IMG/VR virus record: IMGVR_UViG_3300025154_000088
Coordinates: 1-64,000 of that record
Source: a virus
Length of the DNA stretch: 64,000 nucleotides
Direction: 5' to 3' (one strand)
Shown: in pieces, positions 8,701-61,256 of the stretch
How the letters are laid out: each line of letters begins with the position of its first letter
Numbering within the stretch: the first letter of the stretch is position 1
Made by a program: the position numbers and the translations under genes
The notes under the pieces: model-generated
Database searches by the model: none
The model's input: the letters and a program-made list of their open reading frames with translations, nothing else
What the model was told of the DNA's origin: nothing

Positions 8701-11700
8701 CGCAATCGACCGGCAGCTTCAAAAAAACGGCATCCAGAACCCCGGTAAAGAAGACCGCGCCAAGTGGGTAGAGGACAACCTCTATAACCGCTCCCTTGCC
8801 CGTGGTTTTCAGCGAGTCATGCAGAAGGTGCGTGACTTCATCGACGCTTTTGTGGGTCTGTTCAAGGCCACGGCGCGGGGGACGCTGCGGGGGATGGAAA
8901 GCGGGAAGATCTATTCCCGGGCGCTCCCAGAATCAACCGCTGATGAGGGGATGCCGCTGTTCTCCGAAAAGGCAGAACGCAACTTCGAGTCCTCATTTCC
9001 GGAGCACAACCTTTCCGCCCTGAAAGACATCGCCGGTATCTGGAAGGGCCGCGGTAAAAACTGGGCACCACGGAAGGAAGACACCACCGTTGTCGAGAGG
9101 CTTCTCTCCATCCCGTCCCATTATTTCTCGAAGATCCCGGCCCTCGGAAGAATGTTCGAAGACGGAGTTGGAAGGTCGGATGACTTCTACGGGATGATCA
9201 ACCAGCTCGAACAGGTGGACGGGAAGTCCCTTTTGAAGGGTGTTCTGGAAAAGCTCAAGAGCGATTCCAAGGCCGATTACCAAAAGGTCAAGCGGTACAT
9301 CGTAACTTCCGACCGTGAAGGGAAAGGCTTCAGGGTAAAGAACAAAGAGGGAAAATACATCGCCTTCGAAGATGGAAAGACCGCTATCGGGGAATTTGAC
9401 ACCGAACAACAAGCTTGGAATGCCGCACGAAACGCCGAAAGGGAAAAGCTGATTTCCCAAGGGTTTTCAGACCAGGCCGCAGATGCGGTTGTCGCCGCCC
9501 GGCACATCACAGACAACGGGTTCGACATCCTCATGGCCTCCATGCGGGACATCATCCGCAAGGCCGAAGAGAACGGGACCGAGCTTCCATCAGTCACAAT
9601 CCGTGACGGTTCGAAGACGGTCAAGATTGACCTCAAGGTAGCCCTTGCGAAGATGAACGACATCCGGGGGCATTACTTCCCGCGAATCAGAAAGCCCGGA
9701 AGGTTCTCCATCTACGCCCGAAAGGATGGGGTCAACCCGATTTATGAAAAGTTCGACACCCGGATAGGTCTCGAATCCCGGGCGAACCAGCTTTCAGGGA
9801 TGGGGTACAAGATCGAGAAAGACCTATCGAATGCCATGCCGGAAGACGTCTTTGAAATGGCCGGCGAGATCATCGCAACCCAGGCGATCATAAACCGGGC
9901 CCTAGACCAGATGGATTCAGAGATCAAGGGCGGGGCCTCTCAAGCTCAGCTTGAAAAGCTCCTTCCAGACCTTGAATCCACCTTCGCCAAGATGCTGGCC
10001 GAGGGGGTTGCTGACATCATCAAGGCAAGGGGTGTCAGAGCCCACATGATCGAGCGGAACGACGCCACAGGAAAAGACGTATGGGTAGGCTACGAAGAAG
10101 ACCCGGTGACTGCCCTTGGGCTTTACGTTCGCGGGATTGCCGCGGGCGAAGCGAAGAAGAACCTTGCCATCAAACTTCTAAGGCACTTCACGGGAACCGA
10201 TATATCATGGCAGGAATGGAAGGAAGCTCAAAAGGAAGAGGGTGTTGAAAAGCCTGAATACGCCGACTATGTGGAAATGGTCAAAGACCGAAGGGTCGAT
10301 CCCGTCCAGCAGAAAAACGCCTTCAAGGACGGGAAGGTCTACATGGAAGACCTCCTGAGAAATCAGGAATTCGGGGACCGGATGATCGGAGCCGTCCGGG
10401 GGCTTGCCGCCCTGAAATATCTGGCTGGCAGAGTCGCTGCGCCGGCGGTGAACTTGACCTCCCTCGTGACATCGGTTCTAGCGGTAATGCACGCAAAAGC
10501 TGGAATCTCCTTTGCCAAGGCTCCCATGTTGCTCGCCAGAGCCATGAAGCAATACCTCCAGTTCAAAAGAGATCCTTCAAAACTCAACCCGGAGACCAGG
10601 ACCCTTTTCGAAGAAATCGAAAAACGCGGCTGGCATACCGCGCAATACAATAGAGAAGCCCTGTCCGTTCTTCAGTCGAAAATGGGTCAAGGTTGGGGGA
10701 AGTTCACCGACTTCGCCATGGTCGGGTTTTCCGTGTCGGAGATTATCAACCGGGTGGCCACCATCGCCGGGACATACCAGGGGGTGAAAGGGAAACTTGG
10801 TCACGACGAAGCCCTGAAACTTTCGAAAGAGGTTTCCGACAAGGCGCACGGGGTTTACGGAAAAGCCAATTATCCCTTCCTGGCGAGAGGCGGGAACCCG
10901 GCGGCGAAGATTGCACAGATGTTTTATGTCTTCCGGACCTTTTCCCATACGTACTTGGCGACAATGACCGAGCTCGGGTTCAAGGACAAGGACTATAAAG
11001 GCATGGCGTACATGGCCCTTGCCCCTGCGGTTATCGCCGGCGCCGGCGCGACGGTCTTGACCCCCATCTTGGTTCAGGCTGCGAAAGCCCTTGGGATCGG
11101 CGGAGATGACCCGGAAGAAGAGATTTACAAATGGATCGAAGCCCAGATGGGGGATGAATCGGAACGGTTCGCACGCCTCGGAATCGCCGGTCTGATGGGG
11201 TTAAGCCTCAAGGGGTCTCTTGCGATCGGGATCACCGACATCCCGACAAACCTTTCGGAGCTCATGGGAGCCCCTGGGAGCGTCATGCAGGATCTTTACT
11301 ACGGAGGAAAATCTATCGCCCGGGGAGACATCGGAAAGGGTCTTGAGAAAATGGCGCCCCTGGCCGTGAGCAACGTCCTTAAAGCCTACCGGGAATCAAC
11401 CGAGGGGCTTACCACGGGTTCGAACGCTCCACTTTTCTACGGAAACGAACAGGTCAGGGCAGATGCGACGGAGGCCTTCATCCGGGCTTTATCCTTTAAC
11501 CCTGCTCGAATCGCAACGATCAGGGAGAAACAGTACAAGGAATTCGAGGTTGAAGAACGATACCAGAAGCTTCGGAACGACATCTACGCAAGGATCAAAA
11601 GATTCTATCTTCAGCCCAAGGAGGACCAGACCAAAGCCTCATGGGCTGAAATTATGGGAGAGGTCACGGCTTACAACGACAGGGTAAAGACGCGCGGTCT

Positions 11701-11797
11701 CTATCCGGGCGCTACATACATCACCTTGAAATCGATCAAGGCAAACCTGAAACGGTCCTTCAGGCCGTCAAAAAAAGAACGCTCAAGGGGGGAATGA
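2789..11797 (+). CDS. Giant polyvalent ejection protein (3,002 aa, multi-domain)
   Basis: ATG 2789 overlaps the previous stop (ATGATGG) and follows AAGGGG. Visible modules: residues 70-325, Gly/Ala-rich hydrophobic, resembling membrane-active parts of ejection proteins; 330-420, Pro-rich linker; about 810-1165, a ParB-like (DdrB-type) segment with SGNGRTIAIRKAY; about 1270-1415, a RadC/JAB-like fold with HNHPGG at 1368; about 1629-1845, an ADP-ribosyltransferase-like segment starting PVFHGG and ending IYIPIDPKQIKI; HENFH at 1953, a zinc-metallopeptidase motif; 2050-2900, an unassigned domain typical of large polyvalent proteins; about 2738-2765, a hydrophobic helix. Such proteins are known from phages and plasmids as cargo delivered with the DNA that counters host defences. 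Here it holds the place of P22 gp16. Base composition changes inside the gene (AT-rich near 5755-5905 and 7680-8330), suggesting module swapping. Confidence 0.8.
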   Translation: MMDNEVSRWLKDPEFLSLPDNVKSEAIGNYFVENYADDEFFKAPVEIQREAANGFITEHFSSVKPVETKRTMLGTAGDVGVSLAKGIVGAGEAAVGLADIPSFGLVGNALEKVFGYDPKTTQDVLASLYSPSQQKANKAVEDAKGFFGKASAAIQNPSTIGMNVVESTPSMLGGAGIARGLLQKGMVAAPVVAGAIGEGLVGAGSSAEQTRQETGTLSPKQALSAVGSGTGTAAFALAGGRIAEKLGFADIDTMLAGGGFKEGAGNIIKRIVGGGISEGVFEELPQSMQEQVWLNAALDRPLMTDVPEAGAEGMLAGAVMGGGANIFSRKAEQPQKVPSPGTRTKPPKVEPRPEPEMGMDEMVNQGVMPEIPKSPEQTVAAPPPPSVTGPVSPADMEPPEEITSPTAPRPVFIPAQPKRKPTDQDLALGGIDQTLEKSALDTAERYEEAERQVAASKGEKSGLTPELTELVRRAEIQYRRATKQGKETGNWGPKNQLQKTLTQAKKGDPEATLELWARFGGGIEEPREVSRAREAIQKKTARQEAERGAMVALGYDTNDINRMSPEERTRVSALRIQKPAEEDPFRAVEDRWEGPKVPAEEVEKAMRPVIPPKAEPSIQAEGVGQSAQGKTESGKVETGGKPAKPALPPPQETKKAPTTPEEVVAAYFSAHEGPDAGSADMAAIRNYAKHQIGPLAKRLEKTPWLTHDGYATTDRKTGRTHNRSKDLKALVDLGYAQMAWDREGNAHYAKAGVNLPEWLTQSENDADLEKLPSKGEVKPVQKTEATGKKAISRGSTSKTYLPDDTEIETEYAVVGVDDLTTSHNDQFQKNAGYPEELQPRGRERKALQQQVERMANTLQPERLGEAPSASLGTSIAGEDLIVESGNGRTIAIRKAYDGRESGKKYRQWLVENAERFGLSRGAVEKIERPVLVRIRKTDMDRVKFAQKTATPDIAGMSPVELARMDAGNLSEDDMMVFAPSEEGNLNAQSNRRFISRFLENVGLNEASGYLTDEGNYNKKIIDRIQSAIFFKAYRDEAFVSWQSEEADPEMRNLLNALTVAAGEFARARALDPKMGGLDVTPYILDAVRIVRQSRREGRSVREILDQTLMFETRPEQVKDIARVLDENIRSGKQMGVFMKEMGRAIRGALTGEKQASLFGVDEYPTVRGIIERSAEKVRRKDDRERQADLFSENSEGGLRQGERGIPGRTENEGKRVSSDREERGEKEGVTNGTELREPQGEFASFKTGQQTFDFVFTPAEKRRAKEILPESDKPRVLHQAQRVRMATTGNIWWDGNVVRNAEDAASLIAPIRKSAQENIYTIVTDPNGTVVEIHRYGKGAKASGQFDELEVMGRVFNVDNASKVYFIHNHPGGNPTSSPEDRNAIRRLQEFAALRDIDVEGLIVGGSRWAPFVSSGNTAEPKAIRPSIRKSSLPIKERMLIKIRNFGKAKQVLNPEQAASVINEKYGNADGFLFISPTGYDLGFMVWPAGRQFRVAADWLIKTGESLNANRIIVNTKKALSDSGNGRRDFLEAFAKSYKNAIPFADIIDQGKSLMVMDRREYLEIAGGSFSNGVSDLKGNRTLYALAPNSPRGVKEGMSGKTGKGDRTTGETPKPEGGNPFKESIVRKPVFHGGDGPIAQFSKDGPSRGDLGMAYFTDDLKTAEKYAYLGGIPKTEYSESFLNDDGTVNIEAVLESYEEEGIKRKPFVTKVYLDIRNPVDLDFIRAQDIIDAVGGVDVFFKRSSNFGILDNLKDAAEEYASENGKDIDEVFTEFLDDWLAKDYRTTSGIEDDESLADAPHAHFAFAYGFLDDIIKHNKADGIAYRDAESNSNIYIPIDPKQIKITPNFSSPAGEAGQFSTSPQTFSGITPAEVQTLFQNIGQESGIHFDGTIWVKTRGGWGFTVNLVDHISATEAEFLGAYGRLNSEGRPIAGKYQDGKITISKVGDRWTLDHENFHLLSDFGVITEDELAAIDRQLQKNGIQNPGKEDRAKWVEDNLYNRSLARGFQRVMQKVRDFIDAFVGLFKATARGTLRGMESGKIYSRALPESTADEGMPLFSEKAERNFESSFPEHNLSALKDIAGIWKGRGKNWAPRKEDTTVVERLLSIPSHYFSKIPALGRMFEDGVGRSDDFYGMINQLEQVDGKSLLKGVLEKLKSDSKADYQKVKRYIVTSDREGKGFRVKNKEGKYIAFEDGKTAIGEFDTEQQAWNAARNAEREKLISQGFSDQAADAVVAARHITDNGFDILMASMRDIIRKAEENGTELPSVTIRDGSKTVKIDLKVALAKMNDIRGHYFPRIRKPGRFSIYARKDGVNPIYEKFDTRIGLESRANQLSGMGYKIEKDLSNAMPEDVFEMAGEIIATQAIINRALDQMDSEIKGGASQAQLEKLLPDLESTFAKMLAEGVADIIKARGVRAHMIERNDATGKDVWVGYEEDPVTALGLYVRGIAAGEAKKNLAIKLLRHFTGTDISWQEWKEAQKEEGVEKPEYADYVEMVKDRRVDPVQQKNAFKDGKVYMEDLLRNQEFGDRMIGAVRGLAALKYLAGRVAAPAVNLTSLVTSVLAVMHAKAGISFAKAPMLLARAMKQYLQFKRDPSKLNPETRTLFEEIEKRGWHTAQYNREALSVLQSKMGQGWGKFTDFAMVGFSVSEIINRVATIAGTYQGVKGKLGHDEALKLSKEVSDKAHGVYGKANYPFLARGGNPAAKIAQMFYVFRTFSHTYLATMTELGFKDKDYKGMAYMALAPAVIAGAGATVLTPILVQAAKALGIGGDDPEEEIYKWIEAQMGDESERFARLGIAGLMGLSLKGSLAIGITDIPTNLSELMGAPGSVMQDLYYGGKSIARGDIGKGLEKMAPLAVSNVLKAYRESTEGLTTGSNAPLFYGNEQVRADATEAFIRALSFNPARIATIREKQYKEFEVEERYQKLRNDIYARIKRFYLQPKEDQTKASWAEIMGEVTAYNDRVKTRGLYPGATYITLKSIKANLKRSFRPSKKERSRGE

Positions 11798-17939: not shown

Positions 17940-18941
17940 TCAGAGGGAATCGACGGCCCGTTTTTTGCCTGCAAAGGCAATGTGTGTATAAATTTGGGTG
18001 GTTGTGATCTCCTCATGCCCTAAAAGCTCCTGGATGGTCCGGAGGTCCTGCCCGTTCTCCAGCATGTGGGTTGCGAAGGAGTGGCGCAGCATATGGGGAG
18101 TGACTCGCTTCGTGATCCCGGCCCTTTTCATGGCTCCCCAAAGAGCCCGGCGCATGTCTGTAGGAACCCGGCCTGGGTTTTTACGTTTCCGCTGGAGGGA
18201 TGGAAATACCAAATCGCTGACGACATTTTGACAACATAGGTGCTCTTCCATGGCCTTTTTGACTTCTGGATGCATCGGAACAATCCTGGTCTTGCCCCCC
18301 TTCCCTGTCACCCGCATGTAGCCAGGAGCCGGCATCACGTCCTTCGTCTTGAGGTTGAATACCTCGTCCATCCTGAGCCCGCCGTAATAGAGGCAGCACA
18401 GCATCGCCCTGTGATAGGGATCGGAATGGGTGATGATGGCCTCGATTTCGCCTTTTGAGAGGACCTCCGGCAGAGGCCGTCGGTACGGGAGGGGCTTCAT
18501 CCGGATCGGCTCATCGTTGCATTTCCCGTGTTCGTGGGCGTATTTCCAGAGGGCGGACAGGCACAGAAGTTCCAGGTTGATCATCCGCTTTTTGTCCCCG
18601 ATCTCGGAAAGCCTTTTGCCCTTGTATTTTTCGATCAGATCCTTGGTAATGAAATCAAGGTGCATCTGGCCGAAAAACGAGGTTATCGCCCCGTAAAGCA
18701 TCCTGTGTTTATCGCCGTAGGTCCTGGGTCTCTGATTGGTTTTAACGTATTGGAGGTAATCTGGGATGATTTCTGCGATGGTCAGAGCGTCACGGACAGT
18801 CCCGCCAAGCTTTTTCTTGAGTTTGATGTGGAAGAGGTTGGCCTCGGATTCAGTCCCTTCGAACCGGACCCTGTGCCTGCGGTCCCGCCCGATGGAAACA
18901 TCGATCTCCCACCTTCCCTCAGATATTTTCCTCACGGCCAT
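17940..18941 (-). CDS. int: Tyrosine-family integrase
   Basis: A protein of 333 residues. The N-terminal part (1-60) is an arm-type domain, a SAM-like core-binding helix bundle spans about 55-155, and the catalytic domain follows. Catalytic set visible: R190 (YGGLRMDE), Lys in VTGKGGKTR (about 214), H283 and R286 (HMLRH), H309 (LLGHE), nucleophile Y318 (QIYTH). All are present, so it should be active. It would recombine attP with a tRNA-Lys gene. It is the last gene of the left operon and sits right beside the attP core, as is usual. ATG 18941 is preceded by GAGGG. Confidence 0.93.
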   Translation of the reverse strand: MAVRKISEGRWEIDVSIGRDRRHRVRFEGTESEANLFHIKLKKKLGGTVRDALTIAEIIPDYLQYVKTNQRPRTYGDKHRMLYGAITSFFGQMHLDFITKDLIEKYKGKRLSEIGDKKRMINLELLCLSALWKYAHEHGKCNDEPIRMKPLPYRRPLPEVLSKGEIEAIITHSDPYHRAMLCCLYYGGLRMDEVFNLKTKDVMPAPGYMRVTGKGGKTRIVPMHPEVKKAMEEHLCCQNVVSDLVFPSLQRKRKNPGRVPTDMRRALWGAMKRAGITKRVTPHMLRHSFATHMLENGQDLRTIQELLGHEEITTTQIYTHIAFAGKKRAVDSL

Positions 18942-47780: not shown

Positions 47781-49838
47781 ATGCCTAACGAAATCGCAAT
47801 CCCAGACGGCCAGACGGTATCCGAAAAAGATAGCGTTTGGCTTCAGCTTGCCCAACTGGCCTACGATCAGTCCACCAGTTTCATGGACAACAACTACCGG
47901 AAAAACTGGGAGAACGCCCTTCGTCATTTCTCAAATCGGCACCATGCAGGCTCGAAGTACAATTCCCCGGAGTACAGGTACAGGTCGAAGATTTTCCGGC
48001 CCAAGACCAGGGCGGCGATCAGGAGCAACGAAGCCGCCGCGGTAGCCGCTTTTTTCAGCAACCCCGATACCGTTTCAATCGAAAGCCAAAATCCGGACAA
48101 CCCTGAACAGGTGGCAAGCGCAGAGATTACCAAGGAGCTCGTCAACTACAGGTTGGAAAATACAATCCCCTGGTTTCTGACCTGCATCGGGGGGATCCAA
48201 GACGCCATGAAACTGGGGGTGGTGGCTTCCTATCAGGACTGGGAATACGAGGAGAGAACAGATGCCCAGCAGATTCCCCAACAGGATCAGTTCGGAAACC
48301 CGATGGTAGACCCTGCGACCGGCGAGCCGATGATGGCGGAATCGGAAACCATCACGATCCGCAGGGATCAACCAAGGATTCAGCTTCTTCCCATCGAAAA
48401 CGTGAGGATTCACCCAGCCTCTTCATGGATCAATCCGGCACAGTCGAGTCCATACCTTATCGTCCTATGGCCCATGTACGTTCAGGACGTGAAGGCCAAA
48501 ATGCAGGGCGACGACCCAAAGACGGGGAAAAAGCCATGGTTCCAACTTTCGGATGATGAACTCAAGACGGGGAGAAAGTTCGTCTACGATTCAACTCGCT
48601 CCGTTCGAGAAGGCCAAAGGGAAGAGAAGTACGACCAGAACTCAGCCAAGCCCCTGAACGAATACGATATCGTTTGGGTCCATCAAAATTTTGTCCGGAT
48701 CCAGGGCGAGGAAGTCGTTTATTTCACACTGGGGACCGAGCACCTTCTTTCCGAGCCTCAATTTCTCGAAGAAACCTGCCCGATAGGGGAAAGGCCGGTC
48801 GTCATCGGGTGCGCTCTGATCGAAACCCATAAACTCATGCCGGCTGGATACGCGGAGTTGGGGAGCGAAACACAAAAGGAGATCAATGAAATAGCGAATT
48901 CTCGACTGGATAACGTAAAGCTCGTCATGTTGAAACGCTGGCAGATGAAAAGAGGCAAACAGGTTGACACCGGGTCCCTTCTTCGAAACGCAGCCGGATC
49001 TATCACCCTCGTCGACGACCACGACGACCTGAAAGAGATCGCATTCGAAGACGTTACGCAGTCTTCCTACCAGGAGCAGGACCGCCTGAATGTGGATTTC
49101 GATGAGCTCCTTGGTTCGTTTTCAGCCTCTACAATCCAGACGAATCGAAAGCTCAATGAAACCGTGGGCGGCATGTCCATGCTCCGGGGTACGGCAAATT
49201 CCCTTTCAGAGTACACTCTCAAGACATACGGGGAAACGTGGGTTGAGCCTGTCATCAAGCAGCTCGTGAAACTGGAGCAGGCCTACGAGACTGACGAAAC
49301 GGTCCTGACCATCGCGGCGACAAAAGCAAAACTTTGGCAGCGGTTCGGGATCAACGAGATCACCGACAGGCTGATTCGGCAAAACCTTTCCGTCAAAGTG
49401 GATGCAGGGTCCGGTGCGACGGATCCAATGTTCAGGCTGGAGAAATTCCTTCTCGCAGTCGGGAAATATTCGGAGATTGAAGCCCGGCAGATTGAGATGA
49501 TGGCCGCAGGCGGGCAGCCGACATTGAACCTTGAGGAGATACAGGCCGAAATCTTCGGGCGCCTTGGCTACAAATCAGGAAAAAGGTTCTTCATCCCGAA
49601 GCAACAAGAAGACCCCCAGGCGGCGCAACTTGCACAGCAGATCCAAGAGATGCAGGGCATGATTCAACAGCTCCAAGCGGCCCTGCAAGACAAAGAAGCC
49701 GACCGGCAGGCCAAACTCACAGACACCCAGATTCGAGAGCAGGGCCAGAACCAGAGGAAAGCAGCGGAGCTCAATTCCCAGATGCTTTTGAAAACCATGG
49801 ACCTGCGAAACCCGGTAGCCGGTGAAAAAAATGCCTGA
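47781..49838 (+). CDS. Portal protein (P22-like)
   Basis: A protein of 685 residues. SFMDNNYRKNWENALRHFSN near the N-terminus, RRDQPRIQLLPIENVRIHPA in the middle, and a helical, Gln-rich C-terminus (about 610-670, QQLQAALQDKEADRQAKL) like the P22 portal barrel. It forms the ring through which DNA enters and leaves. Placed between terminase and scaffold, as expected. ATG 47781 has only a weak ribosome site. Confidence 0.82.
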   Translation: MPNEIAIPDGQTVSEKDSVWLQLAQLAYDQSTSFMDNNYRKNWENALRHFSNRHHAGSKYNSPEYRYRSKIFRPKTRAAIRSNEAAAVAAFFSNPDTVSIESQNPDNPEQVASAEITKELVNYRLENTIPWFLTCIGGIQDAMKLGVVASYQDWEYEERTDAQQIPQQDQFGNPMVDPATGEPMMAESETITIRRDQPRIQLLPIENVRIHPASSWINPAQSSPYLIVLWPMYVQDVKAKMQGDDPKTGKKPWFQLSDDELKTGRKFVYDSTRSVREGQREEKYDQNSAKPLNEYDIVWVHQNFVRIQGEEVVYFTLGTEHLLSEPQFLEETCPIGERPVVIGCALIETHKLMPAGYAELGSETQKEINEIANSRLDNVKLVMLKRWQMKRGKQVDTGSLLRNAAGSITLVDDHDDLKEIAFEDVTQSSYQEQDRLNVDFDELLGSFSASTIQTNRKLNETVGGMSMLRGTANSLSEYTLKTYGETWVEPVIKQLVKLEQAYETDETVLTIAATKAKLWQRFGINEITDRLIRQNLSVKVDAGSGATDPMFRLEKFLLAVGKYSEIEARQIEMMAAGGQPTLNLEEIQAEIFGRLGYKSGKRFFIPKQQEDPQAAQLAQQIQEMQGMIQQLQAALQDKEADRQAKLTDTQIREQGQNQRKAAELNSQMLLKTMDLRNPVAGEKNA

Positions 49839-51154: not shown

Positions 51155-51925
51155 ATGGCAGGGCAAGTGTGGGCTGTGGACAGCGTGGGCGGGTATATGT
51201 CCGCCGAAAATCTGTCCAAAAAGCTCCGCATGGCCGTTCAGCCTCAGGTGAAGTTTCGGCAGTTTTGCGATGTAAAGGATGCATCTCAGCAGGGGAAGAA
51301 AAAAGGAGATCAATTCCACTGGGACGTTTACCTGGACATCGCCACTCAGGGCACGACCGTCGCGGAGACAAACACGGTCCCGGAATCCAATTTTACCATC
51401 GTTCAGGGCACCCTCACCATCGATGAGGCGGCCCATGCGATTCCGTATTCCGGGAAACTCGACGACCTTTCCGAGCACCCCTTGACGGAGATCATCAATA
51501 AGGTGCTCAAAAACGACGCCAAGAAGTTTTTCGACATCTCGGCGCACGCTCAATTCGACACCTGTCTTCTGCGGGTCTACCCGACCGGCGGGACGGCAAC
51601 CGACGCGGTAACGCTGGCGACCACCGGGACAGTCGGCGGGACCAGCACCAAGGCACTGAACACCGGGCATGTCAAGGCAATCGTGGACCTCATGAAAGAA
51701 CGGAACATCGTTCCCTACACCGGGGATGATTATTACGCGATTTCCTGGCCGTCCACCTACCGGACCTTCAAGAACGCACTGGAGACAATTCACCAGTACA
51801 CCGCCGAAGGCTTCGGGATGATCGCAACCGGTGAAATCGGTCGGTACGAAAACTGCCGGTTCATCGAACAGACCCATGTGGCAAAGGCGGGCACCACCTA
51901 CACGGATTGGTGCTTCTTCTTCGGT
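51155..51925 (+). CDS. Major coat protein, exon 1 (residues 1-257)
   Basis: The coat protein is 312 residues after joining 51155-51925 with 52853-53020. It resembles the N4 gp56-like / P22-gp5-region coat family: VWAVDSVGGYMSAENLSKKL, DQFHWDVYLDIAT, and the long central beta-helical domain. The frame runs on into the intron for 39 codons before a stop, so an unspliced product would end in unrelated residues. Exon 1 ends ..FFFG at a T, the required base before a group I splice site. AAGGAG lies 7 bases before ATG 51155. Confidence 0.87.
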
Positions 51926-52852
51926 AAATTCTTTGCCGCTTGTTGCAGTAATGCAGCAATGATAACCTCGTTAATTGCTGGAAAGCTAAAGGCATTCGTG
52001 CCCATGCCAATCAGCAGCCAAGCTCTGCCGAGTGTGGCATGAGAAGGTTCAACGACTATCCCGAGAGGGAGTACATCGCAAGTGCGATGGAAAAGCGAGG
52101 CATCCGGAAACGGATGAAGATATAGTCTCATCTCATGGGAAACCATGAGCAGTCTTTTAAGACGGTGCAAACAGAGAATGGAATCAATCATTAAAGCCGA
52201 TATGCAAAAATGCAAAGTGTACGCGCTTTCATCCAGTGAAAATGGAAGAATCCGCTATATCGGCCAGACCATACAGTCACTAAGCAGGAGGCTTGCCCAA
52301 CACATAGCAGACGCAAAAAGGTTTGCGGAGAGCAAAAGCTACCTGCACAGGTGGATTCGCAAAACATTGAGGAATGGGTACAACTTGCAAATCAACCTCA
52401 TCGATAGTGATTGTGTGGTGGATTTATCTGAAGCCCAGTGGATTGCCTGTTTCAGAAAAACCACCCCGGATCTTGTAAATACCGAAGATGGCGGCAAGAC
52501 CGGAAAATTAGGACACAAACTCTCTGATGAAACAAAAGCTAAAATGCGAGGCCCGAAGTCCGTTACCCATCGGGTAAATATCAGTAAAGGGCTTAGGGGA
52601 ACGCATTCTGAAAAGAGGTCTTTGTCCCAGGTGGGGAATAGCAAATCGAAAGGCGAATCAAACAGGCACGCTGTTCTTACAGAAAATCAGGTGATTGAAA
52701 TAAAGAGAGAACTTAAATCCGGTTGCGTTGGCTCCGAACTTGCCAGAAAGTACGGGGTCCAGAAATCAGCAATCAGCAAGATAAATGTGGGAAGAAGTTG
52801 GAAACACATCCGGATATAAGGCTCTCCATGACGGGTTTGCACGAAGACCATG
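51926..52852 (+). ncRNA. Group I self-splicing intron in the coat gene
   Basis: Core elements are clear: Q-like AATCAGCAGCCAAGC (about 52009); R element GTTCAACGACTATCCC (about 52048); P8 hairpin CATCCG-GAAA-CGGATG (52101-52116); S element AAGATATAGTC (52117-52127), whose ATAGTC pairs with R's GACTAT (P7); P9 CTCATG / CATGAG just after. P1: exon CGGT pairs with guide GCCG at 51935, giving the conserved U-G pair at the cut. The intron ends in G (52852). Joining at these points restores a 312-residue frame. Length 927 bases. Core sequence resembles subgroup IA of phage introns. Confidence 0.88.
52145..52819 (+). CDS. GIY-YIG intron-encoded homing endonuclease
   Basis: 224 residues from the first ATG, but that start lies in the P9 helix; ATG 52178 or 52202 is likelier. 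GIY-YIG core: KCKVYALSSS and RIRYIGQT, then SRRLAQHIADA and WIACFRK. A NUMOD-like spacer (TKAKMRGPK, VNISKGLRGTHSE) and a C-terminal helix-turn-helix (VIEIKRELKSGCVGSELARK, KSAISKINVGRSWK) recognise DNA. It would cut intron-free coat genes so that repair copies the intron. More AT-rich than its surroundings. Confidence 0.88.
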   Translation: MSSLLRRCKQRMESIIKADMQKCKVYALSSSENGRIRYIGQTIQSLSRRLAQHIADAKRFAESKSYLHRWIRKTLRNGYNLQINLIDSDCVVDLSEAQWIACFRKTTPDLVNTEDGGKTGKLGHKLSDETKAKMRGPKSVTHRVNISKGLRGTHSEKRSLSQVGNSKSKGESNRHAVLTENQVIEIKRELKSGCVGSELARKYGVQKSAISKINVGRSWKHIRI

Positions 52853-53020
52853 GAAGACACAGTCGCAGAAGCAATTGCAGTACCCGAAGAAATGCGTGGA
52901 AAAATCCCCGGCGACTTCGGAAGATCCAAGGGGGTGGCGTGGTACTATCTCGGGGGCTTCGGCCTTGTTCATACCACTGTTGCCCAGGTCCGTGTCGTCA
53001 AATGGGAATCGTTGGCATAA
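52853..53020 (+). CDS. Major coat protein, exon 2 (residues 258-312)
   Basis: Continues the coat frame from EDTVAEAIAVPEEMRGKIPG to GGFGLVHTTVAQVRVVKWES and a TAA at 53018. The GF-x-L-x-HT strand near the end is typical of the C-terminus of N4-gp56-like coat proteins. It has no start signal of its own, so it needs splicing to be made as part of coat. Confidence 0.87.
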   Translation, partial: EDTVAEAIAVPEEMRGKIPGDFGRSKGVAWYYLGGFGLVHTTVAQVRVVKWESLA

Positions 53021-53853: not shown

Positions 53854-54014
53854 TGCTACTCGACACCAGATTCAAGATCTCCGTCCTCAAGGCCCTCGGG
53901 ATGATCCTTTGGTGGGTGGCATTCAAGATGGACAAACTTCACTCAGGCTCTTACCTCACAACCGTAAAGGAGATAGACGACCTTGCGAACGAACTCAAGA
54001 GCACAAGCTCTTAA
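53853..54014 (+). CDS. 53-residue protein with a membrane-like helix
   Basis: ATG 53853 overlaps the previous stop (TAATG). ISVLKALGMILWWVAFKMDK is a possible membrane segment; the tail is acidic helix. It overlaps the glycosyltransferase start by 32 bases. Confidence 0.5.
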   Translation: MLLDTRFKISVLKALGMILWWVAFKMDKLHSGSYLTTVKEIDDLANELKSTSS

Positions 54015-55074
54015 ACTCGGCTTCGTGGCGGGCCATTGCTGCATTCGTGTGCAGAAAATGGCAATCCCGTTGATGGAGCATTGCGGGCATACGGTCTATC
54101 TGTGCAGCCAGAAACTACCCTCCATGGCGCACAGTTACGACATGTTTTGCCAGGCGTTTTCCATTCATCAGCTTCGGAACTGGATCCGGATTGTCGACCA
54201 CGCTGTAGACCTCTACCACGTTCATAACGAACCGAGTTGGTTTGTAACAGCCATCAAGGAAGTATCCGACAAGCCGGTCATCCTCGACGTTCACGACTCC
54301 TTCCTTGCCCGGGTGACTCCAGAGGAGCACGACAAACACATTGCGGACGGTAAAAACGTCATCCGGATCACCCCGGAGGAAAGAAACAATTTCCAGCTTG
54401 CAGACGGGCTTGTCTTCCCGGCGAGGCCCTTTGCCGACCTTATCATTTCGGAATACGGGCTGAAACAGCCGCACTGCATCCTTCCGAGCTACCTCCCCCA
54501 CAACCTCCACGGATACCAGCAGAACAAGGACTGGTACGGGGGTCTGGTCTACGAGGGCCGGGTGGATCTTCCGGAAAAGATCCAAGAGGAATTCGAGCAT
54601 TCGGCAGGGTTTACCTACACCGATTATTCCGACCTCGCCCGGCAATGCAAAGACATCGGAATCGATTTCCACATCTACGCCAGGGGGGATGAGGCTTTCC
54701 TCAAGGTCTACAAGGATATCGCCGTACCTCACAAGCCCGAGGCCTTCAACGTCCTGATCGAAAAGCTTTCCAGGCATGACTGGGGGCTGGTGGGAAACTC
54801 TTTCCATACCCCGGAATGGGAAGTCGCCCTTCCCAACAAACTCTGGGAATATGTCGCCGCGGGGACTCCGGTAGTCTCGATCAACGCCAAGCATTCATCG
54901 GAGGTCATCGAAGAACACGGGATAGGGATTACGGTCAACTCCATACAGGAACTGGCCGACAGGTGGGCAGAGCATACCGAGATCCGGAAGCACCTCTTGA
55001 AGGTTCGTGGGAAGTTCACCATGGAAAATAACATCCATGTCCTTGAAGACCTTTACCGGGAGGTGCTCCAATGA
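53983..55074 (+). CDS. Glycosyltransferase (GT-B type)
   Basis: 363 residues from TTG 53983, which has AAGGAG 10 bases upstream; an ATG at 54057 would cut off the first strand (LKLGFVAGHCCIRVQ). The fold shows the GT-B halves: VDHAVDLYHVHNEPSWF, KPVILDVHDSF, and in the second half LPNKLWEYVAAGTPVVSINA, the nucleotide-sugar site of GT4-like enzymes. It should move a sugar onto an acceptor. First enzyme of the sugar cassette; tightly followed by a methyltransferase (ATGA overlap). Confidence 0.75.
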   Translation: MRTNSRAQALKLGFVAGHCCIRVQKMAIPLMEHCGHTVYLCSQKLPSMAHSYDMFCQAFSIHQLRNWIRIVDHAVDLYHVHNEPSWFVTAIKEVSDKPVILDVHDSFLARVTPEEHDKHIADGKNVIRITPEERNNFQLADGLVFPARPFADLIISEYGLKQPHCILPSYLPHNLHGYQQNKDWYGGLVYEGRVDLPEKIQEEFEHSAGFTYTDYSDLARQCKDIGIDFHIYARGDEAFLKVYKDIAVPHKPEAFNVLIEKLSRHDWGLVGNSFHTPEWEVALPNKLWEYVAAGTPVVSINAKHSSEVIEEHGIGITVNSIQELADRWAEHTEIRKHLLKVRGKFTMENNIHVLEDLYREVLQ

Positions 55075-55682
55075 CCCCCGAAGAAAACGCCTATTGGGAC
55101 ATGGTGGCCGACACGGCCGTAAGGGGTGAAGTGGATGTCAATTACTGGAAGATCGCCCAGATCGTGCGGAGAGTTCTCAAGTACGACCTTTGGGGGTCTA
55201 CCGTAATCGAGATTGGGGCCGGCATACCGTTTGTCGCCATGAATCTTTTGAACATGGTGAAATTCCAATATAACGGCCTTGAGCCTTCAGCGAGATTCAG
55301 GGACGCAGCCGTGTCGATGTTGGGGATACAACTCAAAGCGGCTTCCGCATACGCATTGCAATGCCGAAGCCAGTCCGCCGATTTCTTTTTCGCCTTTGAC
55401 GTTCTGGAGCATGTTTCACGAGACGACCGAGATCGGTCCTACCAGGAAATCGGAAGGGTGCTCAAGCCCGGAGGGCTGATGCTCATCCACAATCCATGCG
55501 AAGGAAACTACCAGGGCCACAAGAAGAAATTCGAACCGGGATTCAGCCTTCAAGACCTTCAGCTTCTGATCGATACTGCCGGCATGAAGCTGGCAGAGAT
55601 CGAGGTTTACGCCATCACCCTTCCGACCAAAAACGGTCCCGATATCAGGGAATACCAATGGATAACGCTGGTCAAAAAATGA
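55071..55682 (+). CDS. SAM-dependent methyltransferase (class I)
   Basis: A protein of 203 residues. Motif I STVIEIGAGIPFV, acidic FFFAFDVLEHVS, then IGRVLKPGGLMLIHNPCEG: standard for sugar/small-molecule methyltransferases. No nucleic-acid motif. With glycosyltransferases on both sides, it probably methylates a sugar or glycan. Confidence 0.8.
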   Translation: MTPEENAYWDMVADTAVRGEVDVNYWKIAQIVRRVLKYDLWGSTVIEIGAGIPFVAMNLLNMVKFQYNGLEPSARFRDAAVSMLGIQLKAASAYALQCRSQSADFFFAFDVLEHVSRDDRDRSYQEIGRVLKPGGLMLIHNPCEGNYQGHKKKFEPGFSLQDLQLLIDTAGMKLAEIEVYAITLPTKNGPDIREYQWITLVKK

Positions 55683-55693
55683 AAGGAGAAGCT

Positions 55694-57391
55694 GTGAACA
55701 TCAAAGAATATTGGGATCATGAATGGTCCCGTCGCATCGTCGAAGGCGGTGTGCTGATGAACAAAGAGAAATTCAAATACCTTGTCAAGCAGCTTTGGAA
55801 AAGGCCGTATCTGATTCCGCTTCGAAAGCTGGAGGTCGGGTGCGGGTCCGGGGTACATATCAGGGAGCTTTCTTCGCTGTGTAAAGAGTGGTCAGGAAAT
55901 TATACTGGTTTCGATCTGTCCGAAACAGCCGTAAAATTTGCGAAAAGACAGGGGCTGAACGTATGGCACGGCGACATTACCGGAGATAGAAAAATAAGCC
56001 AGTCTCCATACGCCCCGGTGGGTCCGTTTCAGCTTTTCCTCTTCCTGGATGTCCTCGAACACATGACCGACCACCAAGCGGTCGCCGCGAAGGTCCGAGA
56101 ACTTGCCGACCCGGAAGGCTTCATCATCTTCGGCAACGTCCCCCTTTACCGTTCGAAACATGAGACGGAAGGCGGATTCGAGCGGGAGATGGACATCCAT
56201 GTTCTTCGGAAGTTCATGGAGGCCTGCGGAATCGAAAAGTTCGATCACCACGTTTACGGGATCGACGGCTGGCCGTACATGATCTTTGAGGGAGGCGTGG
56301 AGCGCGGGGCTGCAAGAAAGACCGAAGAGACCACGGAGATCAAGGTAACGAAAGAAGAAGCGGCTATCATCAACAGGCCGGTACATTCCGGTCAAACATG
56401 GGCGCCTACCCCAGGGGGCGGCTTCAAGCAATACCTGGAAACCTGGAAAAAAACTCATCCATCCAAAAAAGCCCTTCGCGTTTTGATCCGGACCCCCTGG
56501 GAGAATTCGTGGATTCCGCTTTACGAGAAGGTTTTTTTGGAGCGTGGGCACCAATACGCATGGCAGCGAAAAGATTCAAATTTGGTATTGCTTGAAGATG
56601 GTAGGGCCGCAGAGCCTCCTCATATTGTTCTCCACATGTGGGCAAACGACCCCGGGGCTCTTGACTATTACCCGGACGCGAAGCAAATCGTCTTCATGCG
56701 CAGGTACGAATTCTTCGAAGGCCACTGGCTCAATTACCAGTGGGACCGAGTATCCCATCTCATCTTCTGCAACGACTGGATCAAGGAGCAGACCGAACAA
56801 ATCGCCAAGGATCGGGGGATCAAACTTCCGCCGACGCACCTGATTTACAATGCCGTCGATCTCGATAAATGGACGTTCAAGGAGCGGGGCCCCGGGAACA
56901 AAATCGGCATGGCCTGCCACGTTCACCCGAAGAAGAATCTCCCCCTTGCGCTCCAGATCCTTGCGGCCCTCCCCCGGGAATACGAGCTCCACATCGCCGG
57001 AGCAATTCAGGACGATGCGACGGCCTACTACATTCAGCATGTCGGGAAGGCTTTGGGGCTGAAGGTCAAGCTGCACGGCCACATCCCCCACAGCCAGATG
57101 GATCAATGGTGGGAAGACAAGAACTACTGCCTTTCGACATCGATTTCCGAGGGGAATCCGAACAATGTGATCGAGGCCATGGCGAAAGGGATACAGCCCA
57201 TCGTTCACAACTGGCCGGATGCTGCCCCTCAATTCAAAGGCGAAGGCGTATTCGACAAGGTTTCAAAGGCAGCGACCTACATCATCAATGTGCATTATGA
57301 TTCATCTCTTTACCGTAAAATTGTTGAAGATCATTTCAGCCTCGACAACTACCGCCAAGTCGTAAGCCTGTGCGAGAAGGTGTGCGGATGA
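55694..57391 (+). CDS. Fused methyltransferase-glycosyltransferase
   Basis: A protein of 565 residues; GTG 55694 is chosen for AAAGGAG (an ATG at 55679 is in frame). Residues 1-200: class I methyltransferase (LEVGCGSGVHIRELSSLC, LFLFLDVLEHMTDH). Residues 250-560: GT-B glycosyltransferase (HLIYNAVDLDKWTFKE, PPCH-type loop HVHPKKNLPLALQI, LHGHIPHSQMDQWW, TSISEGNPNNVIEAMAKG), the last being the typical E-x7-E nucleotide-sugar motif. One chain could add a sugar and methylate it. Confidence 0.8.
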   Translation: MNIKEYWDHEWSRRIVEGGVLMNKEKFKYLVKQLWKRPYLIPLRKLEVGCGSGVHIRELSSLCKEWSGNYTGFDLSETAVKFAKRQGLNVWHGDITGDRKISQSPYAPVGPFQLFLFLDVLEHMTDHQAVAAKVRELADPEGFIIFGNVPLYRSKHETEGGFEREMDIHVLRKFMEACGIEKFDHHVYGIDGWPYMIFEGGVERGAARKTEETTEIKVTKEEAAIINRPVHSGQTWAPTPGGGFKQYLETWKKTHPSKKALRVLIRTPWENSWIPLYEKVFLERGHQYAWQRKDSNLVLLEDGRAAEPPHIVLHMWANDPGALDYYPDAKQIVFMRRYEFFEGHWLNYQWDRVSHLIFCNDWIKEQTEQIAKDRGIKLPPTHLIYNAVDLDKWTFKERGPGNKIGMACHVHPKKNLPLALQILAALPREYELHIAGAIQDDATAYYIQHVGKALGLKVKLHGHIPHSQMDQWWEDKNYCLSTSISEGNPNNVIEAMAKGIQPIVHNWPDAAPQFKGEGVFDKVSKAATYIINVHYDSSLYRKIVEDHFSLDNYRQVVSLCEKVCG

Positions 57392-58239
57392 ACTTCGCCC
57401 TCATCGGTGCAGCCGGCTTCGTAGCCCCCAGGCACATGAAGGCCATCAAAGACATCGGCGGGAACCTTGTCGCAGCCCTGGATCCTCATGACGCGGTTGG
57501 GGTGATCGATTCCTATTTCCCCGAGTGCGATTTTTTCACCGAGTTCGAACGATTCGACCGGCACTGTGACAAGCTTCGCCGGCAGGGCAAGGGCATCGAC
57601 TTCGTTTCCATCGCGTCACCGAACTACCTTCACGATTCCCAAGCCAGATGGGCGCTCCGGATGGGGGCCGACGCCATTTGCGAAAAGCCCATCGTGTTGA
57701 ACGAGCGCAACCTCGACGGCCTTCTTGAAATCGAGCGGGAGACCGACCGGAAAGTCTGGGCAGTGCTTCAATGCCGGCTTCATCCGTCAGTATCAGGTAT
57801 CCCAGGGGGATGGAATATCCCCCACATGCCAAATATCGACATCGAATATTCGACTCCCCGCGGCAATTGGTATCGCCATTCCTGGAAAGGGGATGAAAAG
57901 AAGTCCGGGGGAATCGCAACCAACATCGGGGTTCACCTTTTCGATCTTTGTGCCTGGCTTTTCGGGAAAATGGAGAACGTGGTTTCTATCCGTCAGTCCG
58001 AAGACACCATCAAAGGCATTCTCCGGCTTCGCACGTCCGAGGTGTCCTGGCGGCTGAGTATCGACAAGGCAGAGCGACCGAAGCGGATCTTCAGAATCAA
58101 CGGAACCGACTACGACCTGACCAACGGGTTTACCGATCTTCACACGGAAGTCTACCGGAGGATCATCGAAGGAAAAGGCTTCGGAATTGAGGACGCCCGG
58201 GAAGCCATCCGAATCTGTGAGGCTATACGCAATGCCTGA
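57388..58239 (+). CDS. wlbA-like: UDP-GlcNAcA 3-dehydrogenase-like oxidoreductase (WlbA/WbpB type)
   Basis: A protein of 283 residues; ATG 57388 overlaps the previous stop. [20 protein letters not shown] is the NAD site in the WlbA wording; ICEKP holds the catalytic Lys; [20 protein letters not shown] is the substrate loop with its His. WlbA oxidises C3 of UDP-N-acetylglucosaminuronic acid. Slightly shorter than usual (about 315-350). Its product is normally transaminated and then acetylated; the acetyltransferase gene follows. Confidence 0.83.
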
Positions 58240-58744
58240 CATCCACCCTACCGCAATCATCGACAATGGGGCCATCATCGGCCAGGGCTCAAAAATCTGG
58301 CATTTTTGCCACGTCATGAACGGAGCCGTCATCGGGGCCGGATGCACCATCGGGCAGGGGTGTTTTATTGCCCCTGCCGTTTTCATCGGGAACCGGGTGA
58401 AAATCCAAAACGGGGTTTCGGTTTTTACCGGGGTTCACATCGAAGACGATGCTTTCGTAGGTCCTTGCGTAACTTTCACCAACGTCCTGAACCCCAGAGC
58501 TTTCATGGACAAGAAACAGGAGTTCCGGCACACGGTCATCAAGAGGGGAGCCACGATCGGAGCGAACGCTACTCTGGTTTGTGGGGTCACGATTGGGAAA
58601 TACGCCATGATCGGCGCCGGGGCTGTGGTGATCAGAGATGTTCCCGATTTCGCTTTGATGGTCGGAAACCCTGCCCGTCAAATTGGCTGGGTGGACAAGG
58701 AAGGACATTCCAGAAAGGACATGCCGAATGGACAAATGCTCTAA
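58232..58744 (+). CDS. wlbB-like: Sugar N-acetyltransferase (WlbB/WbpD type)
   Basis: A protein of 170 residues; ATG 58232 overlaps the dehydrogenase by 8 bases. Left-handed beta-helix hexapeptides throughout ([35 protein letters not shown]). FTNVLNPRA and [18 protein letters not shown] are typical of WlbB/WbpD, which acetylate the 3-amino group of UDP-2-acetamido-3-amino-2,3-dideoxyglucuronate. Complete by length. Confidence 0.83.
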
Positions 58745-58895
58745 AAAGGAAATGGAAAGGGGCTGGAAGACGGTTCCATCGGAGCCCTACGACCCGGAAG
58801 ACGTTGAGCGGGCCAAACTGGAGAAGGAATACCCCTTCATGAAAAACGAAACAGAGGGCGGCTTTGCCGGCCGGCCGAAAGGATGGGAGAGGTGA
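58728..58895 (+). CDS. 55-residue hypothetical protein
   Basis: ATG 58728 lies inside the acetyltransferase end. Charged, with [20 protein letters not shown] and a Gly-rich tail. It overlaps its neighbour on each side. Unknown. Confidence 0.5.
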
Positions 58896-59203
58896 CGTTC
58901 GAACCAGAACATAAAACCGCTCAAATACAAATAGAGTGGTGGACGTGCCCAGACAAAAAGCACAGACACAGAACGCGAGAAACAGCATTGTGGTGTGCCC
59001 ATAAACAAAGCAGAAAAGGCAAAAAGACCCAAGTCAGGTGGACGGATGACAACTTGGATAAAATCTGTGATCAGCGAGCAGGCGGCATGACCTATGAAGA
59101 AATCGGCTCCTATTGGAACATAAGCCAGTCTCGGGTGCGGCAAATTTTAACGGAAGAGAAAATCAGATATCGAAGAAGAAGAAACAAGGAGATGAAATGC
59201 TGA
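58883..59203 (+). CDS. Small helix-turn-helix protein (sigma-region-4-like)
   Basis: A protein of 106 residues. The second half reads DICDQRAGGMTYEEIG-like: CDQRAGGMTYEEIGSYWNIS followed by QSRVRQILTEEKIRYRR, a helix-turn-helix like sigma region 4 or homing-type DNA-binding modules. The N-terminal half is a Trp/Cys/His segment (WWTCPDKKHRHRTRETALWC) that may bind metal. It lies inside the sugar cassette and may regulate it. Confidence 0.55.
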   Translation: MGEVTFEPEHKTAQIQIEWWTCPDKKHRHRTRETALWCAHKQSRKGKKTQVRWTDDNLDKICDQRAGGMTYEEIGSYWNISQSRVRQILTEEKIRYRRRRNKEMKC

Positions 59204-59718
59204 CACTGAACAAACGAAAGCCGTTCGGAACAGTCCACGGCGTAGGAGAGGCAAGGTTCGAGCAGGACGGGGTTCTATTCGATGCAGGAGAAAAGGGTAT
59301 CGGAGGGCCGAAATACGAACAGCGTCTCGCAGAAATGAAGGCCCGGGAGACCGCCGACGCATCGCAGGGATGTCCTGCCTGTAAAAACTGGATCAGCGGA
59401 GAAGCCTTCGAGTGCGCCGACTGCGGGACTTCCTGGAAGCTCGTTGCCGGGTTTCCCCAATCAAGGTGGGTGGCCACCCCGAAGCAGGCCCCTCCGGCTC
59501 CGGTAGAGCCGATTCCTGTACAGCCGGCCCCTGCTTTCGAATTCCCGGAGCCAACGGAGGTCATCCGCCTTCCCGACGCGGAAAACTTCGACGACCTTTC
59601 CCCGAAGGAGATTGAAAACGCCCTGAAACATTTCGCGGTCGAATTCAACCCCCGGGCTCACATCGGGACGAAACGGCAGATGCTTCGTGAAAAGATGGCC
59701 GAGGAGGGCATGCTGTGA
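59197..59718 (+). CDS. Zinc-ribbon protein with a Pro-rich linker
   Basis: A protein of 173 residues; ATG 59197 lies behind AAGGAG. CPACKNWI and FECADCGTSWKL form a four-Cys ribbon (about 60-85); a Pro/Ala linker follows (about 93-120); the end (SPKEIENALKHFAVEFNPRA, KRQMLREKM) is helical, possibly HeH/SAP-like. Overlaps the next gene by four bases. Function unknown. Confidence 0.55.
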   Translation: MLTLNKRKPFGTVHGVGEARFEQDGVLFDAGEKGIGGPKYEQRLAEMKARETADASQGCPACKNWISGEAFECADCGTSWKLVAGFPQSRWVATPKQAPPAPVEPIPVQPAPAFEFPEPTEVIRLPDAENFDDLSPKEIENALKHFAVEFNPRAHIGTKRQMLREKMAEEGML

Positions 59719-61256
59719 CGTGGAGTCTGGAAAATTCCCAGGGAAACGAATCCCTGAAGATCCGATGGGAGATCGTCCCCTACACGAGGGGAAAGGTTCT
59801 CGATCTGGGGTGCGGGCCATTCAAGGGGTATCCCCATTTTATCGGAGTCGATTCCTGTAAGGATTCTGGCCTGTTTGGGGGAAGGGTCAAACCGGACGTG
59901 GTCTGTGATTGCGAAAACCTTTCAATTTTCGCTTCGCAGTCCATCGACGCTGTTTTTTCCTCTCATCTTCTGGAGCATATCGTCAAATGGGAGGATGCCC
60001 TAAAAGAATGGTGGAGGCTCGTAAAGCACGGCGGGGTCATGGTTCTTTACCTTCCCCACAAGGATTTTTATCCAAACGTCGGTAAAGTCGGATCAAATGT
60101 CGATCACGTTCACGACTTCACCCCTCAAGACATTATCGACTGGATGGAAGGATGCCCTGGCGGGTGGGATCTTCTGGTCAACGAAGAGCGAAACGGAGAA
60201 GATGAATATTCGTTCCTACAGGTTTACAGAAAACGACAGGGCCACCAGAAAAACCATGCCTGGAAAGATCCAAAACCTTCGAAAAGGGCATGTGTCGTTC
60301 GGTACGGAGGGGTTGGGGACATGCTCATGGCATCGTCCATCCTCCCAGGACTGAAAGACCAGGGGTATCACGTCACCTTCAACACGACTCCGAACGGGTA
60401 CGAGATCTTGAAGGAGGATCCCCACGTTGACGAATGGATGATCCAGGACCGGGACCAGGTTCCGAACGGGGCACTTCCGGAATACTGGGGAGCCCTTTCA
60501 AGGAAGTTCGACAAATTCGTGAACCTTTCAGAATCAATCGAGGGGACCCTTCTCGCCATCCCTGGAAGACCGAATCACCGTTGGCCGGACAACCTCCGGA
60601 AAGTTCTTCTCGACGGGAACTACCTCGCCTTCACCCATGCCCTTGCGGGGGTTCCATTCGAACCGAGACAGAAGTTTTATCCGACCGCGAAGGAAAAGGA
60701 GTGGGCGGAGAAATACCGTAAAAAGCTCGGTGGACAGGTGGTCATGTGGGCGCTTTCCGGGTCTTCGGTTCACAAGGCCTGGCCCTATCTCGATGCGGCG
60801 ATAGCCGGCCTGATGATTGAATATCCCCTTGTGAAGGTGGTCCTGGTCGGTGGGGAAACGGAAAAGCTCCTTGAATCAGGATGGGAGAACGAACCAAGGG
60901 TCATCCGGAAATCCGGGGAGTTTTCCATCCGTGAAACCCTGGCCCTCGCCGAGGTCTGCGATCTTGTTGTGGGACCGGAAACGGGAGTCTTGAATTCGGT
61001 CGGGTTTCTGGGTGTTCCGAAAATCGTTTTCCTTTCCCATTCGTCGGTCGAAAATCTCACCCGGGACTGGAAAAACTGCGTCTCTCTTGTCCCCGATGGG
61101 TGTGGATGCTGGCCTTGTCACCAGATGCATTACGGGTTTGAGCACTGCAAAAGGGACGAAGCTACAGGGGTTGCTGAATGCGCGGCGAAGATCCCAATTG
61201 AGGACTTCAGGGACGCCGTTTACCATCTTCTCGGGAAACCGACAGGGATCAGGTGA
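59715..61256 (+). CDS. Fused methyltransferase and GT9-like glycosyltransferase
   Basis: A protein of 513 residues; GTG 59715 overlaps the previous stop. Residues 1-175: small class I methyltransferase (GKVLDLGCGPFKGYP, AVFSSHLLEHIVKWED). Residues 190-510: GT9 heptosyltransferase-like GT-B fold (KRACVVRYGGVGDMLMASSI at the start of the acceptor lobe; LAEVCDLVVGPETGVLNSVG at the donor lobe). GT9 enzymes usually add heptose to LPS core. Second fusion of this kind in the cassette. The next gene is a tail-assembly protein. Confidence 0.8.
   Translation: MTWSLENSQGNESLKIRWEIVPYTRGKVLDLGCGPFKGYPHFIGVDSCKDSGLFGGRVKPDVVCDCENLSIFASQSIDAVFSSHLLEHIVKWEDALKEWWRLVKHGGVMVLYLPHKDFYPNVGKVGSNVDHVHDFTPQDIIDWMEGCPGGWDLLVNEERNGEDEYSFLQVYRKRQGHQKNHAWKDPKPSKRACVVRYGGVGDMLMASSILPGLKDQGYHVTFNTTPNGYEILKEDPHVDEWMIQDRDQVPNGALPEYWGALSRKFDKFVNLSESIEGTLLAIPGRPNHRWPDNLRKVLLDGNYLAFTHALAGVPFEPRQKFYPTAKEKEWAEKYRKKLGGQVVMWALSGSSVHKAWPYLDAAIAGLMIEYPLVKVVLVGGETEKLLESGWENEPRVIRKSGEFSIRETLALAEVCDLVVGPETGVLNSVGFLGVPKIVFLSHSSVENLTRDWKNCVSLVPDGCGCWPCHQMHYGFEHCKRDEATGVAECAAKIPIEDFRDAVYHLLGKPTGIR

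Follow-up and report, generated by a model that had tools for sequence, protein, structure and literature searches.

The major capsid gene of an uncultured virus, analysed here in a window of 64,000 of the 65,351 bases of its record, almost certainly carries a mobile group I intron of the IA type, which appears to be one of many that independently invaded this capsid gene. In total, 17 group I or group I-like insertions are found at nine sites in 13 capsid genes, eight of the interrupted positions being additional ones from related phages that go beyond anything claimed in an earlier reading of the window (the sequence-only reading). The detected group I introns of this capsid family can safely be described as strongly concentrated in the capsid gene. 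On its own, the window intron adds another case to the group I introns of phage structural genes, and the greater weight lies with the comparison among relatives.

Exon 1 (51155..51925, + strand, 771 nt) covers codons 1-257 and ends in U, as its open frame and its full-length homology to capsid proteins without introns show, and exon 2 (52853..53020, + strand, 168 nt) supplies codons 258-312 and the stop, as shown by the joined frame and the same homology. The earlier proposal that joining 51925 to 52853 rebuilds a 312-residue coat frame holds: the two exons give a 312-aa capsid protein, 312 codons without gap or stop, which aligns end to end with intronless capsids from E. coli, Vibrio and metagenomic phages. 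Unspliced, the coat frame would run into a stop at 52042, 38 codons into the intron, and yield 295 aa. The GC content of the intron is 46%, versus 56% and 54% in the exons. The spliced product is matched by phrog_1357 ‘major head protein’ (5e-16) and reaches 56.1 bits with TIGR04387 (N4-gp56 family), under the cut-off of 60, and is therefore named N4-gp56-like only; it is an N4-gp56-like, HK97-fold major capsid protein. Nearly full-length alignments at 44-48% identity are obtained with the capsid proteins of the E. coli phages PTXU04, Pondi and Bas95 and of Vibrio phages, and homologues from IMG/VR contigs are up to 77% identical. The best structural matches of an AlphaFold model of a 75%-identical homologue—a low-confidence model, pLDDT 49.5—include the NF5, N4, Moo19 and HK97 capsids, and a PDB sequence search with the capsid profile returned no relevant chain. 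An SU10-type portal gene lies upstream (47781-49838), as expected beside a capsid gene.

The intervening 927 nt (51926..52852, + strand, last base G) read from their letters as a complete group I intron of IA layout. The Rfam model RF00028 (gathering score 50) matches 51916-52149 over its full length (1-253) with 103.1 bits and E 1.3e-25, and nowhere else in the 65,351-base record is a group I intron detected; the sequence-only reading had suggested this covariance-model search, and its split of the coat gene by a group I intron is borne out down to the coordinates. The ribozyme core as a whole (51940..52149, + strand) rests on the RF00028 match and a check of helix pairing, and comprises P2 (51940-51959), P3 (51966-51970/52096-52100), P4 (51976-51981/52011-52016), P7 (52054-52058/52123-52127), P7.1 (52059-52070), P7.2 (52074-52089), P8 (52101-52116) and P9 (52132-52149). 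Thus not only P7, P8 and P9, noticed earlier, form in this intron, as P1, P2, P3, P4, P7.1 and P7.2 do so too, giving the conserved P3-P9 core of group I introns, including the guanosine site in P7, together with extra helices P7.1 and P7.2 between P7 and P3. These two helices are the mark of an IA-type intron. Other readings of the insert were rejected, an intein by the in-frame stop at 52042 and the ribozyme core, and a group II intron by the lack of any such match in Rfam.

At the 5′ splice site, P1 (51922..51938, + strand) pairs exon CGGU and the following AAA with UUUGCCG. Exon 1 ends in CGGU, with U51925 as its last base, and the intron starts with AAAUUCUUUGCCG and ends in G52852; CGGU pairs with GCCG, placing the pair U51925·G51935 at the cut, so that the U·G pair and the terminal intron G expected of group I introns are both found where they had been read. 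P10 can form between UCUUU at 51930-51934 and exon 2 GAAGA at 52853-52857 (+ strand), and together P1 and P10 make an exon/guide duplex of nine contiguous pairs across the frame-predicted junction. Such an exon/guide match is not rare by itself, since 2.6% of random U/G junctions within the window reach at least nine pairs. Intronless relatives read uninterrupted through this site as FFFG-EDTV or close variants, and the P1 U·G pair, the 9-bp P1+P10 duplex and these homologues jointly support the predicted placement of the splice sites.

Orthologous introns occur at the identical site, between codons 257 and 258, in two further contigs. In L161, from another metagenome, a 900-nt intron follows the same codon and encodes a 47%-identical protein, which does not reach the threshold of the Pfam GIY-YIG model and is classed as GIY-YIG by its alignment to the window nuclease; its exon GGGU and guide GCCC, versus CGGU and GCCG in the window, represent a compensatory change. 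In L206, whose contig was assigned to a Moraniibacteriota genome bin, the intron is 319 nt long (RF00028, 90.3 bits), with no ORF longer than about 55 codons and no nuclease. Helices were located one by one, as pairwise MAFFT alignment misplaces P8 between the window and L161: P2, P7.2 and P8 differ in their letters across the three introns and pair in all of them, and P3, P7.1 and P9 likewise pair in all three, with letters changing in L206. Nuclease-bearing, nuclease-free and empty alleles would together fit the prediction of a homing cycle, and the same-site orthologs with and without nuclease, along with the intronless homologues, argue for the mobility proposed in the sequence-only reading.

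The putative vehicle of this mobility is a 224-aa GIY-YIG homing endonuclease ORF (52145..52819, + strand) that starts at ATG 52145, within the P9 helix, has an alternative in-frame ATG at 52178, and ends in a C-terminal DNA-binding-like segment. Its match to PF01541 (Pfam GIY-YIG) is modest, 26.1 bits against a cut-off of 22.6, and agrees with the class read from the letters; a phrog homing endonuclease profile also matches (1.3e-9), as does the L161 ORF. With TIGR01453 (NCBIfam group I intron endonuclease) it reaches 24.6 bits, below the cut-off of 56.05, and it is therefore not assigned to that subfamily. The L161 protein is the one close relative found; a search of viral contigs with the window protein gave no other, the best match being 47% identical over 59 C-terminal residues, and a PDB sequence search with a two-sequence nuclease profile gave no relevant chain. 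The group IA introns of T4 td, nrdB and nrdD and their relatives have the P7.1/P7.2 layout and lie in nucleotide-metabolism genes, and the td intron encodes the GIY-YIG nuclease I-TevI; the window intron thus shares its layout and nuclease type with the td intron, whereas the host gene differs and the nucleases are only distantly related, with no match in the PDB search. Among annotated phages, the nearest cores are those of terminase-region introns in Escherichia and Campylobacter myoviruses (e.g., RudolfGeigy, MZ501102; ~71% over 215 bases), with which only ribozyme-core DNA is shared, the gene and the phage group being different.

We propose that the intron splices itself out of the precursor mRNA through the usual two transesterification steps started by guanosine, at little cost to coat production, that the nuclease would cut the coat gene of intronless relatives near codon 257/258 during co-infection, and that repair of the cut allele would copy the intron in. 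Alternatively, the intron may be a splicing-competent but immobile relic, inherited vertically, whose GIY-YIG protein is inactive or unexpressed, a reading that we consider unlikely. In its favour, a near-identical intron was not found in other phages, the missing ORF of the L206 ortholog shows that nucleases do get lost, and each candidate start codon is either part of P9 or preceded by a poor ribosome-binding site. Against this, the nuclease ORF is intact, with a GIY-YIG match above cut-off, and close capsid relatives (up to 77% identity) have no intron at the window site. Moreover, identities between the window and L161 nucleases at codon positions 1/2/3 are 0.57/0.65/0.31—the only measure given, because dS is saturated—and this pattern of change is that of a protein that has been under selection.

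Relatives interrupted at other places in the capsid gene were found by tblastn of the spliced coat protein against retrieved loci, and splice sites were set by the open frame and the best protein alignment, with exon U/intron G preferred or required, so that in the relatives the U/G rule is not independent evidence. Numbered by window capsid codons, the nine sites lie at 13|14 (L003), 35|36 (L008, L011, L128), ~39 (L196, position uncertain), 52|53 (L165), 55|56 (L170), inside codon 82 (L170, L177), 93|94 (L166), 257|258 (window, L161, L206) and inside codon 288 (Vibrio phage 1.232.O, or L084; L161, L166, L177). Four genes (L161, L166, L170, L177) are interrupted twice, the two introns of a gene differing in site and in nuclease type. 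RF00028 scores above gathering in the window, L084, L161 (both introns), L165, L166 (both), L177 (codon 288) and L206, and below it in L008, L128, L170 (codon 82) and L177 (codon 82); the match is weak in L011 (E 8e-6 with the record searched alone, 0.07 in another search) and marginal in L170 at codon 55 (E 0.49), and L003 and L196 were called from splice-site logic together with their LAGLIDADG-like ORFs. Nucleases differ among sites, being GIY-YIG at codon 257, HNH at codon 52 and, in antisense, at codon 93, and LAGLIDADG-like at codons 13, 35, 39, 55 and 82 (several of these assignments are under the Pfam cut-off, and those in L128, L177 and L196 were made by eye from motif and similarity), with none at codon 288. 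The codon 93 intron of L166 (1444-2500) has an HNH nuclease ORF of ~245 aa on the strand opposite to the gene. In the cultured Vibrio phage 1.232.O (MG592596.1), an unannotated, ORF-less group I intron of 313 nt (3863-4175, 83.1 bits) interrupts the capsid gene, and the deposited capsid protein of 290 aa stops inside it, which shows how capsid genes can be cut short by automatic annotation, even when the phage is in culture; an HNH gene (4314-4799) follows the true end of the capsid gene, and a search of viral contigs with this capsid gave no match.

In 133 capsid-bearing records (2.6 Mb, counted without the window and L206), all RF00028 matches with E ≤ 1e-3 fall in the capsid gene; introns included, this gene accounts for about 5% of the bases. 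Because many of the records are short contigs surrounding the gene, and because long inserted ORFs make introns hard to detect wherever they lie, confinement to the capsid gene is the most that could be claimed. Residues at intron sites are more conserved than at random boundaries (mean entropy 0.68 versus 0.95 bits, p 0.02, 102 sequences). In one complete set of capsid loci, nine of 64 contigs have at least one capsid intron.

Spliced introns in phage capsid genes are already published, and the hotspot is the part worth following. In the Cluster J mycobacteriophage LittleE, splicing of a capsid intron was demonstrated by RT-PCR and N-terminal protein sequence (PMC3706429). Like that of the window, this group I-like intron of about 0.8 kb lies in the major capsid gene, has exon U and intron G at its borders, and contains a nuclease ORF; unlike it, it belongs to another capsid family and phage group, its nuclease, encoded on the opposite strand, is given as LAGLIDADG-like/HNH rather than GIY-YIG, and the paper leaves its subgroup unsettled, in contrast with the IA layout found here. 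According to PMC3706429, a gene for a capsid subunit of the lactococcal phage Tuc2009, a siphovirus of low-GC Gram-positive bacteria, is likewise interrupted by a group I intron. The earlier view that introns are rarer in structural genes can thus be kept only in a tempered form. A survey of Bastillevirinae introns places most of them in DNA polymerase genes and does not contain the word capsid, and genes for homing nucleases often occur close to those for capsid and terminase. A literature search, thin on subscription journals, found no paper describing a phage capsid gene that introns interrupt at many positions.

What stands out is how far the detected introns of this capsid family cluster in a single gene that is essential and strongly expressed; they occupy nine positions there, their nucleases are unrelated, and some copies of the gene hold two. 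A bolder reading, which we regard as doubtful, is that homing introns compete for the capsid gene of this phage lineage and are favoured by selection as weapons and shields instead of being merely tolerated. If so, each nuclease would destroy the coat gene of co-infecting relatives, occupancy of a site would protect the phage's own coat gene from one nuclease class, and this contest would have left its mark in the nine sites and their unrelated nucleases. The nuclease-bearing, nuclease-free and empty series is natural material for following the homing cycle in a coat gene, and could test the weapon idea raised for an intron nuclease of phage PhiPA3 (PMC11620839).

The sequence-only reading had also suggested that splicing might limit virion production or act as a control point, setting coat output in time or with host state. 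Although the coat protein is needed in large amounts, and the start of the nuclease gene in P9 could let translation and folding compete, this finds no support and seems very improbable: the great majority of relatives are intronless, so that control by an intron is not needed, the one tested phage capsid intron, that of LittleE, is reported to be efficiently spliced (PMC3706429), and no conserved regulatory feature was seen. Finally, an assembly artefact, conceivable for a metagenomic record, or a free-standing nuclease gene merely breaking the coat gene can be rejected with near certainty, as the insert has a full ribozyme matching its own exons and two independent contigs from other samples (L161, L206) have orthologs at the identical site.

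Elsewhere in the window, a tyrosine-recombinase integrase (17940-18941, − strand; Pfam Phage_integrase, 1e-39) points to a possibly temperate phage. Relatives of the capsid are encoded on contigs from isolates of Paraburkholderia and Pseudothauera (L198, L208, L199), hinting at a proteobacterial host. A 3,021-aa protein (2732-11797, + strand) combines a ddrB-like ParB domain with a RadC-like JAB domain, and directly downstream of the capsid module runs a series of glycosyltransferase-like and methyltransferase-like genes (53983-61256, + strand), one ORF of which (55496-57391) has both domains. In an unrelated virus (L088, record G086), four group I intron matches are found, three of them within 1.4 kb (5215-6627).
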